Positions 47,423-56,739 of a DNA stretch of 64,000 bases are shown here, piece after piece. Source of the DNA: Lobosporangium transversale (lineage: Eukaryota > Mortierellomycota > Mortierellomycetes > Mortierellales > Mortierellaceae). Made by a program: the position numbers and the translations under genes. The DNA lies in the NCBI RefSeq assembly GCF_002105155.1, contig NW_019028983.1, positions 894,001 through 958,000 of the forward strand, written 5' to 3'. Numbering within the stretch: position 1 is the stretch's first letter; the number at the start of each line of letters is the position of its first letter. Under the pieces are notes generated by a model. It was not told the origin of the DNA. It did not search any database and worked only from the letters and a program-made list of their open reading frames with translations.

Positions 47423-48712
47423 CGTTCTTTACTGACGCGTTGTGATTTTCAGCCTGCGCTCCCAGCTGCCACTGTTGTAACAAACCAATCGACAAACCCT
47501 ACAATCAGCACAGAGACACCTGTGGCCTCCGTCACAAACGGTGTTCGCAAGCCTGCGATGACACGCGAGCAGCTTAAGTATTGTACAGCTATCATTAGAC
47601 AACTCAAAAGGCATCGCGATGCACCTGCCTTCCTACACCCTGTTGATCCTTTGCAGCTCAAGATTCCAGACTACCCTCTCATTATCAAACACCCAATGGA
47701 TCTTTCAACAGTTGATCGGAAATTAAGTGGACTGGAATATGATGCTGTTGATGACTTCGTTAAAGACGTCAATCTAATCTTTGAGAACTGCTATTTGTAC
47801 AACGGTCGAGAGTCGCCTGTTTCTATCTGTGCATCCAATCTTGAGGCCTCGTTCCACAGCTCGTTGCGTCATATGCCTAAAGATGTAAGATGAAGAACGT
47901 TGTATCACATGAAATCGATGAGTAGAAAATGTTCAACAACATATTATTAAATTTTACTGAATATGAATATGAACATCCTGCCTTAAATATCAGAATTCCA
48001 AGATTGATGTTCCAGCCGCAAAGGAATCTGCAAAAAAGACTCCAACCACCCCCAAGCTGAAGAAGGAAGCAGTGAAAAAGGAAGATGCCAAAACCCCAGT
48101 CCCTGTTTATGTGCCACCATCAGACCCAATCCCACTGAACCTCTCTCAATCTAGAGCTGCATCTGAGGAACGTCGACCTAAACGAGATATTCATGCGCCC
48201 TCAAAGGAAATGCCTACAGCAATCGCTGTGAAGAGGAAAGGCGCAGGGAAATGGAAATCGGACCCTCAGCTTCGATACTGTGCAAGCATTCTCCGGGAGT
48301 TTTCAAAAAAGGCTCATGCGGAATTCATGTTCCCTTTCATGGAACCTGTGGACTATGAGAAGCTTGGCATTCCTGACTATCCCAAGATCATTAAGAACCC
48401 TATGGATCTTTCAACTATCCGTCAGAAGCTGGAGGACGATGAGTATGATGACCCGGCTCTATTTGAGGCTGATGTCCGTCTTGTGCTCTGGAACTGCTTC
48501 AAGTTCAACCCTGTTGGAACTCCTGTCCATATTATGGGACGCAAGATGGAGAGTTTGTTCAATGAGAAGTGGGCTGAACGTCCGTTGCCACCCGCTCCAC
48601 CAGCAATTGAAAAAGAGGAGCCTGTTGTGGAATCTGAAGATGATGTCGATTCATCTGGTATGTATCAACATGAAGTTTACCAGAAGGAGCAGTTTCTAGT
48701 GTAATCGTGCTA

Positions 48713-49721: not shown

Positions 49722-51942
49722 ACACATTATTTGCGGGTTACTGTCTGAACAGTGTCTTCGCAACATCGATGCAACCATTTGTGCATCCTGTTTTATATTG
49801 CCCTCTGATTGTTTGTTTGTACTTTGTATACGACAAGAAGCATAATGTACTTTATAATATTCTCGCATTTCTTTCTCGCATTCCTGGTGTCGTGTACTTG
49901 TATTGTCTATCTATTGTCAATGTGTTGCATTTTTAGAAGTACCCTTTTTTTTTTCCTTTCTACATGTGATTGGGTAAAAACGTTTTTATTCAAGTACTAA
50001 TCTGTCGAACCAGCTAAAAGGAATCTTTGCGCAAAGCCTTTGTAGTCATAGGCGGGTCCGCCTCACCTAGAAACTACCGAGTATAAAAGCCAAAGAAACT
50101 TCCTTCTTAATAAAGTCTTCAGTTTCCCCCACATGTCTTATTCTTCACCTGCAGTTCATCTTGCCATTTATCTTTTTCCCCTTTTCACAACAAGCATTTG
50201 TCTTCCGGTAACTCAGTTTGTGAGCTCACCTATAAAGCTCCCATCTTTTCTTTTGACATTCTATGGCGCTGTTTGTAGTCAAGGTTATTTGACTCTATTT
50301 TCTCTTGTCAATCTTGTTAACACTCTTTGTCCTGATTGTGTCTATCTTTCTGTCCCTTAAGCAAAGATATTTTTTACAACAATGCCACCAAACCAATTTA
50401 TTATGATTAAGATATGTGGGGTCTATATGTTGTCTAAATAGTCCTCCCCATAAAAAAACACCATCTAGACCAAGCATAGAAATAAAGAGATTAGTCAAGA
50501 AAGCACTGTCGAGCTAATACTTACAACTTTTTCAAGACGAAGGCCTTTCCCGACCTAGTCATGTTTGTAGTAGCTCATGAAAAATTTTAGACAGACAAAT
50601 AGTAACCAGGGAGCAGAAGTGAGAATAGGATGTGGGTTCACACATCACATCCATGGGGCATTTATCCAAATTTGTATCAAAATAAAACTGCAAGTTTGTC
50701 TCGGGCACCACACCATGGGACATAGAGCTGTTAGTATGTCTGTATTATAAATTTTCATGTTGCACGTGTACTGTGAAATATGCAACTGATCATATCCTAT
50801 TGTTGTTGCCGGCTTGGTGTCTTTCCTCCCCATGGATTCAGCGAAGGCTATTTTGGTATCTCGAATTTGGACTCAACCTGTCAGTGAGTATTGGTGCAAC
50901 GCATATAAGGCACACAGGCTGTTGACGAGCCTACTTCTCATCTTCACCGTTTGACGCAGGTCAGGGGTGTGACGGTCTAGCGAAGAAAACGTAAGGGCAT
51001 TAACAATACCAGGATCGCATTAGACGGTAGTTGTGGTATTTGCAGATGAGCATCGCCCTAGCTCATGGAATATGAGTCCAACGTTTTCAAGAAGTTTGGG
51101 GCTCCTCTTCCAGTTTATGTTTGCGTAGTCTTCATCTGTCAGGTCTTCACCGGCTGCCTTTAAAACACGCCGTGTTAAGGAATCCTTGAGAAAGTTTCAA
51201 TTCCTGGCTGAGATCTTCTTCATCTACGTCAGACTGCTGCTGTCTCTTCGTTTGGACTGTGTCATAGGCAAGTGGATTCAGAACAAGGCCATTAGTAAAA
51301 TCGTTCCTTTGAGTTTGAACCGAGTTATACCTTTGTCTTGTGCCTGTAGGGGTACCTTGTCTTGATAGCCATGAAACATGCGATCTCCTTCAATGTCACA
51401 AAGAGAGCCTGTATCTAGACCTCTTTTGTTCCCTGTACACATTCAAACACTGCAGCCTTGGAAGGATTGTCGAGAGGATGTCAGTTAGGACGTGTTCAGA
51501 CAGATACACATACCGAGGGGGGACGTAAGGAAGTCTGCTTTTTTTATTTCTTGTTGATTGTCATGGCGAAGGCTTGATTTGGTAAATGTAGATGATTGGA
51601 GAAGAGCTGTAAACAATACTCGAAATCCAAAAAGTTAAAACTTGTCGCTGAGAAACTTATTGTTTCGAGTTGTTCCAAATTCATCAGCCTTTTGTTTCGT
51701 TCTCTTTCATACACCTATAAATACGTCCTGCCTCCTTCTCTTTTTCCCTCTCTCTCTCTCTCTCATTTTACAACGACATTGCTTTCGCGCTCTCACCCGT
51801 ACTCTTACACCCTCATCCCCTCACAGATCATAACTTTTTGCTTTCTTAAAGGTAAACTATCTCTACTCTAACAACTTCAGCTTCAATCTTTAGCCGCTTA
51901 AACCAACATTGCTTGCACTGTTTTACACTATACTTTCTCTAG
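49722..51942. other. 2.2 kb intergenic stretch with a decayed coding relic
   Basis: No intact gene seen. On the minus strand between about 51030 and 51420 three frames give protein-like pieces in sequence: DIEGDRMFHGYQDKVPLQAQ, then NDFTNGLVLNPLAYDTVQTK with DVDEEDLSQELKLSQGFL, then AAGEDLTDEDYANINWKRSP with LLENVGLIFHELG. Frameshifts join them, as in a dying gene of unknown family. The promoter of the fusion gene occupies the right end. Confidence 0.5.
51716..51942 (+). promoter_or_regulatory. TATA-like box and CT-rich leader of the fusion gene
   Basis: TATAAATA at 51716-51723 is followed by a CT microsatellite (about 51750-51768) and a pyrimidine-rich leader up to the ATG at 51943, which is immediately preceded by a CT-rich stretch. 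This resembles a normal host promoter and suggests the gene can be transcribed. No transposon terminus is visible here. Confidence 0.4.
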
Positions 51943-53002
51943 ATGGGTATTAAAGGACTCTATTCATACCTTTCAAGGAGAGACCTGCCACCAAAGGAGA
52001 TTGATGTACATGAGCTTGCTGCTGAACCCCATTCATCTTTTGAGCTGGATCTGCTTGGCACTTTCCACAGCGATATACATAATATCATCCTAAGGAGATT
52101 CAGCTGGCAGAGTTCTTTCACTGCCTGCGGCCATGCTATGGCTAGTATCATTCGAAAGATCTTTGGTCCTCTTGCCACAGTGACGATACACATTGATGGG
52201 CCTCGCTGCGAAGAAAAAACGCGTGCCTATAGGGACCGAGATGCTAAGCGTACAGCAGCGGATGCAAAACTCGATACGCTCATAGCCAACATGGAAACCA
52301 AGTCCAATGAAGGCAAATGGGAATCTCGAAGCCATATGATTGTCATTAAAAAGAATCTTCGACAGCTCTTCACATTCAGTCATAACGAGAAGAGGGAGCT
52401 CGCGGCGCCATTCGGTCGATACAATAACTTTGTGATTTGCCATTGTAGAAATGAGGCTGATGTGTGTATTGCCGCCAAATGTACACCAACCAGTATCGCT
52501 GTGTCTGGGGACTCTGACCTTCTCATCTATCCTTCTATAAAAAGAGTTCTTCGTCCAATCCCTCGTCGCCATCACATGTTTGCACTCTATGAGAAACAAG
52601 AGGTCCTGCAAGCCCTTGGGTTTTCAAGGAACAGTCAACTCCTGGTCTATGGCATTATATCCGATAACGATTACACCCCAAATATCCCAACCTTTGGTCT
52701 TGCTACAAATGCTGAGATTATCTCCGCGCTCACTGACACTGATGCCGAAAAGTTGACGGTATCATATGTTCGTGAGGTCCATGCCCGTAGCCGTCGAACT
52801 CCTGCAGAAGGCCAGTTTGACCATTCAATTAATGTTTTCTTTGGTAGGATCCAAACCCAGGCTTCACAGCAACCAACCGCTGAAAGATTCCTTCATTACC
52901 ATGATAGAATGAGGACTGCGATATCTGCTAGGTACCAGAATAAAAATAATCAACCTCAACCCAGGTAAGCTCCTTCAAATGAACATTTTCCAAAGCATAT
53001 AC

Positions 53003-53034
<32 letters not shown>

Positions 53035-55356
53035 ATCTAACCCTTGACATTGTTGTTCCTAATTAGATTCTATATCCCTAAACGCGCAAAGCCGAATCGC
53101 TATCGGCCTGTTTTCCCTACCCAGAAAAAGGAACTTTTCCCTAAGAAATATGACCTGACCAACTGCAAACAACACGACCGTCCCGTCAGCTCCAGCCGTC
53201 AAAGAAAGTCCCCCAAAAAAAAGGAAAAGGAAAAAAAAGAGGATGAGAAAGAAGAGGAGGTTAAGGAGGAAAAGAAGAAAAAAAAGAAGAACAAAGGGAA
53301 GGCCAAGTATATCAGAAAGACTGATAAGACCAGGAAAGTGAAGGAGGCTACTGCCGAGGACCGACGGTTGAAGAGGGCCCACCCCACTGTTGCATTAGCT
53401 CTGGGCACGTTAAAGACATGTGTAGTTGCCAAGCTGGACTCTACTTCCGATCCCAATCTCAATCCCGAGCAACTTGCTGCAACAATTCAAGGGCTCATTC
53501 AATCATTTATTAAAATGTTGAATGAGGCACGGATTCGAGCTTTCTGGGCCTGCGCCTTGTGGATCGATAACCTGCTTACCACTGGGCCATCCAATCCAGC
53601 TGATCTCCCACAACTCCTAGATGAAGTTCTTGATAGCAGGGACTTTATTTACGGCCTTGCTACGTTGTTGTATCACGGAGTGATGAGTCCATTATCTAGG
53701 TATAGCAGGGAAGTGAAGAAAAAAGGCGAAGGGAACGTAGCCAAGCCGTCCCAGCTCAAAGCATACGAAAACTTCTATGCAAAGACAGGGCTTGGTCCTT
53801 TAAACCAGATCTATCCCGATTTGGTGATCAGCAGGTCGTCTCGGATGGTCATGGTCCCTGTTCAAGCAGCGCTAGGGTCTCACTATCGGAATGCGCAGGT
53901 AAATATAATATTATAATATTTTGAGGTTATCTTATAATATGTTTATAGAAATGTTCCTAATCATTTCTTCAATATAATGTCTAGTTTGACATAGATATTC
54001 CAGGCGATGGAAGAAGTTCCATCCAATTCTTTTTTGAGCAAAATGCAACTGCCAAAAAATATCTGGATTTCCCTACGTCTGCTTTCTCGCCTCGGTCTCT
54101 TTGCCTAACGGAAGCCTGTCTCCTGGAGATATTATGGTCTAACCCAACAGTTCGAGAGGAAATAGCCCAATTGTTGGAACTAAACATGAGTACCAAGGGG
54201 GCTGCAGAGGACAAGATCCTTAACCACAAGGGGATATTGTTGCAGGAGCTGTTTTCCTTGAAAGGATACAAGGACGTTGGACTGCAATCTGATGATGGCC
54301 CTAGAAGGAAACTACGGACATCGTTCTTTACAAACGGCCTTACCCTAACACTTCTTGCCTATGACACATCGAAGCAAAAAAGAGGTAGAGGTTCGCAAGC
54401 TGCCCAACCTTCGGATACTCAAAGATCTCAAGCAGTCCAGGCTTCTTCAAGTGCTCAGCAGGGATCCTCGCCTTCAGGCCATGGTGCAGGTGATGGTGGT
54501 GATGATGGAGACGACGACGGAAATGAAGATGACGATATCTTGCTGGGTATCAGCGATATTGACTTGCTGGAAGTTGATGAACCATTCTTAGATGGCGACG
54601 AGGGAGAAGAAGCAGCTGAAGAAGGTACATCGAGCACAAATCCACTGTCCCCGGTGAGTCCCAGTCCCCGGCGTGAGATCAACTGGAAGCAGAGATCCCG
54701 TCTCCTCGAGAATGTAGAAGTTAAATATGACACCCAGGCAGCATGCCCTCCCCCCGAAAGTACCATTATCATTGGGATCGATCCAGGCGAGAGGTACTCG
54801 ATGACAATTGCAAAGTTGGATCCAAGGAAACCTAACGAACGTGAGATCCTCCGGATTTCTAGAGCGTACCTTTACAAACCATCCAAGAAGTTTCAGGGCG
54901 AGCTAGAGAGGCGAAAGCTTAGAAGAGGAATTACAGAGATTGAAAGCCATTGTAGGTTATCATGAATACTACACATCTGCCAAGTGTCCACGACCTCACT
55001 GTGACAGTATATTGGAGAATGTTCCTTTTCGATCCAAGTACTGTCGAAATTGTAAAGCATACTTTGATCGAGATGCTGTTGGTGCTGAGAACATCGCAAG
55101 GGTCTGTGAGTCGCAGATAAGAGAGCAAAAACGACCTGCAAAATATATGCCGCCGGACGGAGGAACTCAAGGCCAAGCTTCTAGCGGTAGTGGCGGCGGT
55201 GGAGGTAGTGGTGGCAGTGGTGGTGGTAGTAGCAGATCCACAAAAAGGAAATTTTCAGATGAAGGAGGAGGAGGAGGAGTAGAGGGATCAAGACCACCGA
55301 AAGGACCTTTGCTGGGTCCAGGAGGAGGGGGAGAGACAAGCCGGCAACAACAGTAG
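51943..55356 (+). CDS. FEN1/XPG-like nuclease fused to a Fanzor/TnpB-like protein (RuvC core disrupted)
   Basis: Three exons (51943-52964, 53067-53898, 53985 onward) join in frame. Exon 1 is a FEN1/XPG-type 5' nuclease: MGIKGL start, D36 (ELDLLG), D85 (HIDGP), E171 and D173 (NEADVC), D190 and D192 (SGDSDLL), D241/D243 (ISDNDYT) then a helical PNIPTFG turn. Human FEN1 acids are at 34, 86, 158, 160, 179, 181, 233. A Lys/Glu linker (about 388-425) leads to a helical region, FFTNGLTLTLLAYD (Fanzor-type pre-RuvC strand, about 733), an acidic insert, and RuvC-I IIIGIDPGERYS (D884). After ITEIES the frame shifts by one; the next frame reads VGYHEYYTSAKCPRPHC, CRNC and YFDRDAVGAENIARV (Zn ribbon and RuvC-III), then a Gly-rich tail. 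The RuvC-I to Zn-ribbon distance is far too short. It is either a recent pseudogene or a protein truncated after ITEIESH. Fanzors are eukaryotic TnpB homologues, some proven RNA-guided nucleases. Confidence 0.82.
54780..54966 (+). other. Internal deletion/frameshift junction in the RuvC core
   Basis: From the RuvC-I Asp codon (54780-54782) to the Glu of HEYYTS (54964-54966) is 184 nt, one more than a multiple of three. In the relic at 5109-5935 the same two landmarks (5184 and 5725) are 541 nt apart. The fusion gene therefore lacks about 357 nt relative to the relic. The breakpoint lies just after ITEIES. Confidence 0.7.
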
Positions 55357-55685
55357 GACACAATTTACTACAAACATGACTGGGTCCAGAAAGGCCTTCG
55401 TCTTAAAAAAATTGTAAGTATTGGCTTGAGACATTCCATCTAGTGTTAAAAGAAGAAGTGTATTAGAACAAAGAAATAAATAAATTAACCAAAAAATATT
55501 ATCGTTTTTTAATGGGACGGACAATACACCAAAAACTTTGCAAAAACAAGTTCATTCTGATCAAGAAATTCCTTTCCTAGCCTATTAAGGGGAATGTATG
55601 CTTACAAATAAATGAATGCACATGCAATTGATGAAATGAGAACTTTTCCATTACTTTACACTACTTTTTTTTCTCAACATAAACA
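55357..55685. other. Spacer between fusion gene and NBP35
   Basis: 329 bp. In TnpB and Fanzor loci the guide RNA often derives from the 3' end of the nuclease gene. I looked here for a strong hairpin or TIR and saw none; the right end is the NBP35 promoter. Confidence 0.4.
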
Positions 55686-56739
55686 ATGTCTCCAGCACCA
55701 GAGAACGCACCTGAGCATTGTCCTGTGAGTCTTTAGTCAGGGTCGTTTTCTGCACATTGGTATTTCTCTTTCTCAGTATCTAACTGTGTTTCTTTAAAAA
55801 ATAAATAAATAAAAAATAGGGGACGGAGAGCGAACAAGCCGGCAAGGCTAGCGCCTGCGAAGGTTGTCCGAACCAAAACGCCTGCGCCACAGCACCCAAA
55901 GGCCCAGATCCAGGTAAACAACTGTCTGGAGTTTTATATCCTTATTCCTACTCTGAAAGTTCTTTCCGATGTCTTACTTTTTATTTGTTGCCTTCTCAAA
56001 GATCTACCTCTTATTAATGACCGAATGGGAACAGTCAAGCACAAACTCCTTGTTCTTTCTGGGAAGGGTGGTGTCGGAAAGTCCTCATTTACCACTCAGC
56101 TTTCATTTGCTCTTTCACACGACGAAGAAACTCAAGTTGGAGTGATGGATATTGATATTTGTGGGCCCTCAATACCAAAGATGTTTGGATTGGATGGTGA
56201 ACAAATTCATTCGTCCAATTCTGGATGGTCACCTGTCTATGTGACCGACAACCTAGGTGTCATGTCCATTGGATTTATTCTTCAGGATGCAGATGATGCC
56301 ATTATCTGGAGAGGTCCCAAGAAGAATGGGTTGATCAAACAGTTTTTAAAGGATGTGGACTGGGGCGACTTGGATTTCTTGGTTGTGGATACGCCTCCAG
56401 GTACATCAGATGAACATTTGAGTGTTGTTCAATATTTGAAAGAATCAGGAATCACAGGCGCCATTCTAATCACCACTCCACAAGAAGTGGCCTTGCAGGA
56501 TGTGAGGAAGGAGATTGATTTCTGTCGTAAAGTCAAGATCCCTATCATTGGCGTCGTTGAGAACATGGCTGGGTTCGTTTGTCCCAACTGTAAAGGAGAA
56601 AGTTCTATCTTTGCCCCCACTACAGGCGGCGCTAGAAAAATGGCTGCAGACACTAGCGTTCGCTTTCTGGGAAGCATTCCGCTAGATCCTCGCATCGGTA
56701 AGCTTCATATGCATCTTTCGAAATGAGGATATAAACCAA

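Follow-up and report, generated by a model that had tools for sequence, protein, structure and literature searches.

A transposon-borne Fanzor1 gene family of Lobosporangium transversale with a predicted N-terminal FEN/XPG-type nuclease

We analysed a stretch of 64,000 nucleotides of the fungus Lobosporangium transversale (assembly GCF_002105155.1, contig NW_019028983.1, positions 894,001 to 958,000 of the forward strand), the whole of which is referred to here as the window. It carries one copy of a repeated element, family A, whose gene is predicted to join an N-terminal nuclease of the FEN1/XPG type to a Lys-rich linker and a Fanzor1. Judged from sequence, the fusion is genuine at the level of the gene family, and the intact family A gene has four exons and three coding introns. 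Transposon-borne Fanzor1 proteins are already known; the predicted novelty is the FEN/XPG nuclease fused to the N-terminus of one of them. Comparison of the copies shows that the order of the parts, the reading frame, the intron positions, the predicted catalytic residues and the inverted repeats with TA are conserved. In our judgement the chances are even that the element carries a Fanzor1 with a fused 5' nuclease made as one spliced polypeptide, which perhaps steers RNA-guided breaks to copying repair.

Exon 1 is an uninterrupted open frame of 341 codons (51943-52968) that starts with MGI and contains D36, D85, E171, D173, D190, D192 and D243. When these seven acids were compared across nine rows (the window and eight others, including two other families; the residue at 36 is absent in three rows), the only departures were two in P0003 (85 and 171) and one in L036 (192). 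The first-pass annotation, which had read the locus as a 5' nuclease fused in frame to a Fanzor/TnpB-like protein, had listed the same acids and also 241; the seven are present and recur in relatives, but position 241 is not conserved across the nine rows. In a phmmer search of the PDB, exon 1 matched XPG/ERCC-5 best (E 4.9e-4), followed by an XPG/FEN1 chimera (8.4e-4), and a seven-sequence profile matched FEN1 (1a76, E 4e-4). The corresponding part of the diverged copy L138 retains all seven acids, exceeds the Pfam XPG_I cut-off of 24.9 with 25.4 bits and matches RAD2 in the PDB weakly (E 0.053). Exon 1 is like the cellular FEN1/XPG (Rad2) nucleases in its MGI start and seven catalytic acids, but differs from them in its low similarity, its transposon-borne setting and its fusion to Fanzor. 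Three of the four strong XPG_I loci of the host were compared with exon 1, and the top score fell to the locus with a 1064-aa frame.

The exon map of the window copy is given in Table 1. Exons 1-3 had been annotated as one frame through to 55356. Introns 1 and 2 are indeed bounded by GT and AG and keep the frame, but it ends at the exon 3 stop at 54965, and an intact fusion in the window is ruled out. The Lys-rich linker and the Fanzor-like landmarks were correctly recognised, the former in exon 2 and FFTNGLTLTLLAYD and IGIDPGE in exon 3; the HEYYTS Zn ribbon and DRDAV, reported as lying in that same frame, stand in another one here, after a deletion of ~0.55 kb. The claim of a FEN1/XPG-Fanzor fusion holds for the join, which is conserved in diverged families, but not for this copy, in which the RuvC half is frameshifted. 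The third coding intron and the multi-copy transposon setting were absent from that annotation.

Table 1. Features of the family A element copy in the window (positions of the window).
Feature	Position	Strand	Remarks
Family A element	49996..55526	+	Left end cut at 49996, right end about 55526; aligned to 14 other copies
Antisense family B Fanzor exon 3 fragment	50930..51514	-	BLASTN 86% over 550 bp to L036
Exon 1, FEN1/XPG-type nuclease domain	51943..52964	+	Unspliced end at residue 341
Intron 1	52965..53066	+	Phase 2, GT-AG; 83-108 nt across 15 copies
Exon 2	53067..53898	+	Lys-rich linker, then start of Fanzor-like N-terminal lobe
Intron 2	53899..53984	+	Phase 0, 86 nt, GT-AG
Exon 3, shortened	53985..54965	+	FFTNGLTLTLLAYD, RuvC-I (IGIDPGE); stop 54963-54965 past deletion
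Junction of ~0.55 kb deletion	54946..54949	+	Removed: exon 3 end, intron 3, exon 4 start
Exon 4 remnant	54948..55356	+	HEYYTS with alternative Glu, Zn ribbon, DRDAV (RuvC-III), Gly-rich tail
3' untranslated region (UTR)	55414..55503	+	GTAAGT donor-like at 55414; acceptor half inverted here (by eye), direct in other copies
Right terminal inverted repeat (TIR)	55505..55526	+	TTTTTTAATGGGACGGACAATA; repeat matched at 55505-55522

The deletion, at 54947, is found in three of the 15 family A copies (the window, L024 and L027). Because the other 12 carry ~0.55 kb more, which spans the remainder of exon 3, intron 3 and the first part of exon 4, the window copy is read as a deletion derivative of the predicted four-exon gene. 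The borders of intron 3 in most of these 12 copies are GAAAAG/GTAA...ACAG/GCAAAATC. The frame of the exon 4 remnant differs from that of exon 3 in the window, and the proper one is visible in other copies. About 140 bp, including the left TIR, are missing at the left end of the window element, and a stretch before its right terminal repeat is inverted (by eye). Long pieces of the window copy are mostly 96-99% identical to the other 14 genomic copies, and some shorter ones 85-95%.

For the Fanzor half we used the signatures given in the available portions of Bao and Jurka (PMC3627910) and of Yoon et al. (PMC10711439: DPG at RuvC-I and an alternative Glu). The Bao and Jurka motif, D-x(125,275)-[TS][TS]xx-C4-x(5,50)-RD, required in one frame, occurs in copy L023 with a D-to-TS gap of 224 residues, C4 and RD; the broken frame of the window copy leaves it without the motif. 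In the intact arrangement, Gly replaces the canonical RuvC-II Glu, an alternative Glu stands six residues ahead of the first Cys, and RD follows. The signatures of Yoon et al. appear as IGIDPGE and E-YYTSAK-C in family A and as CDPG and HEFYTSARC in a second family, B; in L138 the alternative Glu is present, but RuvC-I reads DLG. The second zinc knuckle is CxxC; at the first, A and B have CX4C and L138 has CPIC. Pfam TNB (cut-off 26.3) was exceeded by window positions 54907-55353 with 28.7 bits, by P0015 with 33.7 and by L138 with 41.7; P0012 (25.3), P0013 (13.8) and exon 4 of L036 (23.9) stayed below. In the PDB, the TNB part of L138 matched L79, which is TnpB-like (9b0l, E 0.009).

The join recurs beyond family A. 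Family B is 31% identical to A in exon 1 and 40% in the remainder, with the same FEN-linker-Fanzor order and matching intron places and phases, the start of its exon 2 having been placed by hand; its copy L036 has a frame break ahead of exon 4. The L138 family also keeps this order, with about one third identity in the FEN part, an intron 3 at the same location as in A (by eye) and one in-frame stop in the FEN exon. A chance open frame is ruled out by the presence of the same plan in both, and since the order recurs in diverged families of the same genome, it is more than chance; the predicted fusion is older than family A. The genome has 69 TNB matches, of which 40 are preceded within 6 kb by a same-strand FEN match, as against one for the opposite strand and one for the downstream side. 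These pairs are not independent, because 34 of them are copies of A and B (by eye); of the 29 TNB matches without upstream FEN, some are truncated copies and others may be Fanzors that lack a FEN part. Outside Lobosporangium, FEN-linker joins were found in proteins predicted for four further Mortierella-like fungi: in P0004, P0008 and P0020 (Entomortierella and Mortierella) FEN sequence continues into the linker, and P0016 (Benniella sp.), a single predicted protein of 1160 aa, covers 99% of the exon 1-3 query at 34% identity and terminates ahead of the Zn ribbon. P0003, P0010 and P0011 comprise the FEN part only. The fungal homologues with both halves that the first-pass annotation had called for were found within the same genome, as B and L138, and in part elsewhere, where the models reach from FEN to linker or, in P0016, over exons 1-3.

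The gene is part of a repeated element, of Tc1/mariner/pogo type as judged from its ends, whose inverted repeats are mostly bordered by TA. Exon 1 has at least 104 matches in the 42.7-Mb genome, 14 of them full length at 97-100% identity (the window included) and a 15th without the first 19 residues. Family A has the terminal repeat TATAG[CT]CCGT[TC]CCATT at both ends, the element ends reading TATAGCCCGTTCCATT and, mirrored, TATAGTCCGTCCCATT; TA stands outside 22 of the 28 distinct right ends. In a gene model of Entomortierella lignicola, P0006, the last part of a pogo-like (DDE_1) transposase is joined to a FEN start, hinting at a possible transposase-bearing ancestor. The group L087/L088 was considered as an autonomous partner and rejected, since it consists of short inserts resembling miniature inverted-repeat transposable elements (MITEs) with adjoining longer frames that are not transposase-like (by eye).

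Within family A, the ratio of nonsynonymous to synonymous polymorphism (pN/pS, from sums over pairs, which are not independent) was 0.44 in exon 1, 0.84 in exon 2, 0.39 in exon 3 and 0.57 in exon 4. Frameshift indels were found in none of 15 copies in exon 1, in nine of 15 in exon 2, in four of 15 in exon 3 and in four of 12 in exon 4; several lie in A-rich tracts and may be assembly errors. Constraint is shown for both predicted nuclease-type halves.

At the left ends of the elements, a G precedes the TA in 22 of 24 distinct ends (25 found), with A at -2 in 16 and at -4 in 18 of the 24; this count omits L046 and L047, and a left end is missing from the window copy, L025 and L034. As a control we used a group of MITEs of ~190 bp (L071-L086; 36 sites by pattern, 16 read) that are near-identical among themselves and have the left repeat in common with family A: G was present at 4 of the 16 sites (Fisher p 2.2e-5). 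The control is imperfect, because the right ends of the MITEs and of family A differ. A second MITE group, outside the left-end count, has G in 3 of 4 ends, and in the window 20% of all TA are preceded by G. The left-flank G-TA is a candidate target-adjacent motif (TAM), predicted as 5'-(A)GTA. In the available part of PMC10432273, CA is conserved upstream of the 5' repeat of the Spizellomyces Spu-1 elements, and SpuFz1 requires a CATA TAM.

The interval from the stop to the right end contains, in family A as well as in B, a GTAAGT, a CTAAY branch site and an AG. The strict donor-branch-acceptor pattern was found at the right end in 8 of 15 A copies and in the two B copies available, and was absent from 78,400 control bases; elsewhere in the window there is one minus-strand occurrence at a spacing limit of 90 and, outside the element, one plus-strand occurrence at a limit of 95. 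No GTAAGT was seen by eye in the available stretch of L138.

In the explanation that we favour, the Fanzor half would be guided by RNA from the right end of the element and its flank, and would cut element-free sites beside the TAM read from the left flank. At the R-loop or break, the FEN/XPG half would trim flaps or 5' ends, and this would promote repair in which a sister or homologous site serves as the template for a copy of the element; a pogo/Tc1-like transposase that inserts at TA is presumably supplied in trans. Flap cleavage by the FEN half during excision or repair is our inference. A fuller version, which we hold to be improbable, would have a single polypeptide combine a programmable nuclease with a 5' flap/resection nuclease and leave the guided break primed for copying repair; to this version belongs, with the same doubt, a putative guide RNA matured by splicing of the 3'-UTR intron.

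Several results weigh against the favoured explanation. The window copy cannot encode the RuvC half in frame, and under the common splice model L023 is the only one of 15 copies that runs from MGIKGL to RuvC-III in one frame (1209 codons, with a tail that deviates from that of some other family A copies), the other 14 stopping at 370-944. Exon 2 carries frameshift indels in nine of 15 copies, and several of these are 1-nt changes within A-rich tracts. Exon 1 occurs as a separate product of 341 aa, P0001, represented by 13 sequences in the protein collection, and in other Lobosporangium gene models the halves are mostly split or truncated. A transposase inside the compared family A elements was rejected, none of the PF03184 matches (at least 44) falling in comparable spans by eye. 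Exon 1 of the window reaches only 13.8 bits with Pfam XPG_I, below the cut-off, and that of L036 gives no match. No Fanzor was found in PDB searches with P0015 and profile A2; the nearest match was LaTranC, weak (E 0.87), and those of P0015 were mostly low-complexity. Hairpins after the stop were not clearly better than in shuffles (z -2.5, -1.5 and -0.3). Finally, a target preference of the transposase could yield the same left-flank G, and for this reason the TAM stands as a prediction only.

The most plausible rival, itself rather unlikely, is that each locus makes two proteins, with FEN/XPG alone translated from unspliced or early-ended RNA, Fanzor separate or rare, and the fusion a minor form or a gene-model artefact. 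Exon 1 meets an in-frame stop at the donor of intron 1 in both A and B, its freedom from frameshifts stands beside the many in later exons, and P0001 is just such a protein. Nevertheless, the phase of intron 1 is common to A and B, P0013, whose model uses the intron 1 junction (by eye), joins FEN sequence with the linker as do P0004, P0008 and P0016, and the first Met of exon 2 lies well inside that exon (by eye).

It is also conceivable, and in our view doubtful, that the FEN-like part acts on RNA, processing the guide RNA or serving as an RNA-binding XPG-like domain rather than as a DNA flap nuclease. Such RNA-binding domains are those of the Mkt1/Asteroid type, and P0004 scores 18.7 bits with Pfam XPG_I_2, under the cut-off of 24.2; a 5'-trimmed guide RNA would, by inference, need a nuclease. 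This is opposed by the seven acids in L138 and by the PDB matches of the window exon and of the profile, which are FEN1/XPG DNA nucleases, that of L138 to RAD2 being weak. Passenger decay, with both halves as cargo of an unrelated transposase's element and little function left in the genome, is very unlikely: RuvC-III is not reached in 14 of 15 family A copies and exon 2 has the highest pN/pS, but the values for exons 1 and 3 are near 0.4, exon 1 is free of frameshifts and stops in 15 copies (L034 lacking the first residues), and the same plan is retained in diverged families.

Comparison with known systems, as described in the accessible portions of the papers cited, brings out both likeness and difference. 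Fanzor1 proteins such as SPu-1/SpuFz1, the Mariner-type PGv-1 and PUl-4 have the same DPG at RuvC-I, RuvC-II Gly, alternative Glu and RD, and Fanzor1 elements likewise end in terminal repeats with TA and have a short motif that is conserved to the left of the 5' repeat; Spu-1, too, has no reported transposase of its own (PMC10432273, PMC10711439, PMC3627910). Families A and B differ from the Fanzor1 of fungal and viral transposons in the N-terminal FEN/XPG part with its Lys-rich linker, the three coding introns and the CX4C first knuckle. The PGv-1 element likewise has a second nuclease alongside Fanzor, but this is a GIY-YIG endonuclease and a separate protein (PMC3627910), while in the window family it is of the FEN/XPG type and fused. 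PpFz1 of Parasitella is another fungal Fanzor1 with a lineage-specific added domain, FRI; this, however, is a RuvC insertion that binds cyclophilin and not a nuclease (PMC11423790).

In the full-text literature, which was covered in part, no FEN-Fanzor fusion was found beyond one ambiguous sentence, and it may be described elsewhere. That sentence mentions 'Fanzor flap endonuclease homologs (Fendons)' on two large animal-virus contigs (PMC11071296); its words link Fanzor and flap endonuclease, but the accessible text describes neither an architecture nor a fusion and gives no sequence, and the term may be a mere label for Fanzor. In the available text of PMC12719977 the two co-occur in references only. 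Within the same partial coverage, Fanzor was not mentioned together with XPG or with Mortierell, and a search for XPG/FEN1 with transposable element or transposase and domain fusion returned an archaeal genome paper only. A viral origin was not supported: two pattern-led scans of viral contigs (69 and 125 stretches) gave zero relatives by tblastn. As to why Fanzor is retained in eukaryotic transposons, its predicted fusion to a nuclease that processes DNA ends suggests that selection may act on how the guided break is repaired. The family would offer a natural two-nuclease, RNA-guided-type protein together with a concrete TAM prediction from left flanks.

The antisense family B fragment of Table 1 lies in the 5' non-coding part of the element and is found in the window and at least eight other family A copies at ~85-87% identity. 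Family B right ends (L035, L036 and L109-L128) have a fixed sequence ending in ...CGTACAGATCAACAGA, followed by TA in all 22 read; a left inverted repeat of family B gave no match, including in a search with the mirror of the right end. By eye, the open frame upstream of the element (47973-48704) resembles a bromodomain protein of the BET type, and the one downstream (55809-56726) a P-loop ATPase of the Nbp35/Cfd1 type.

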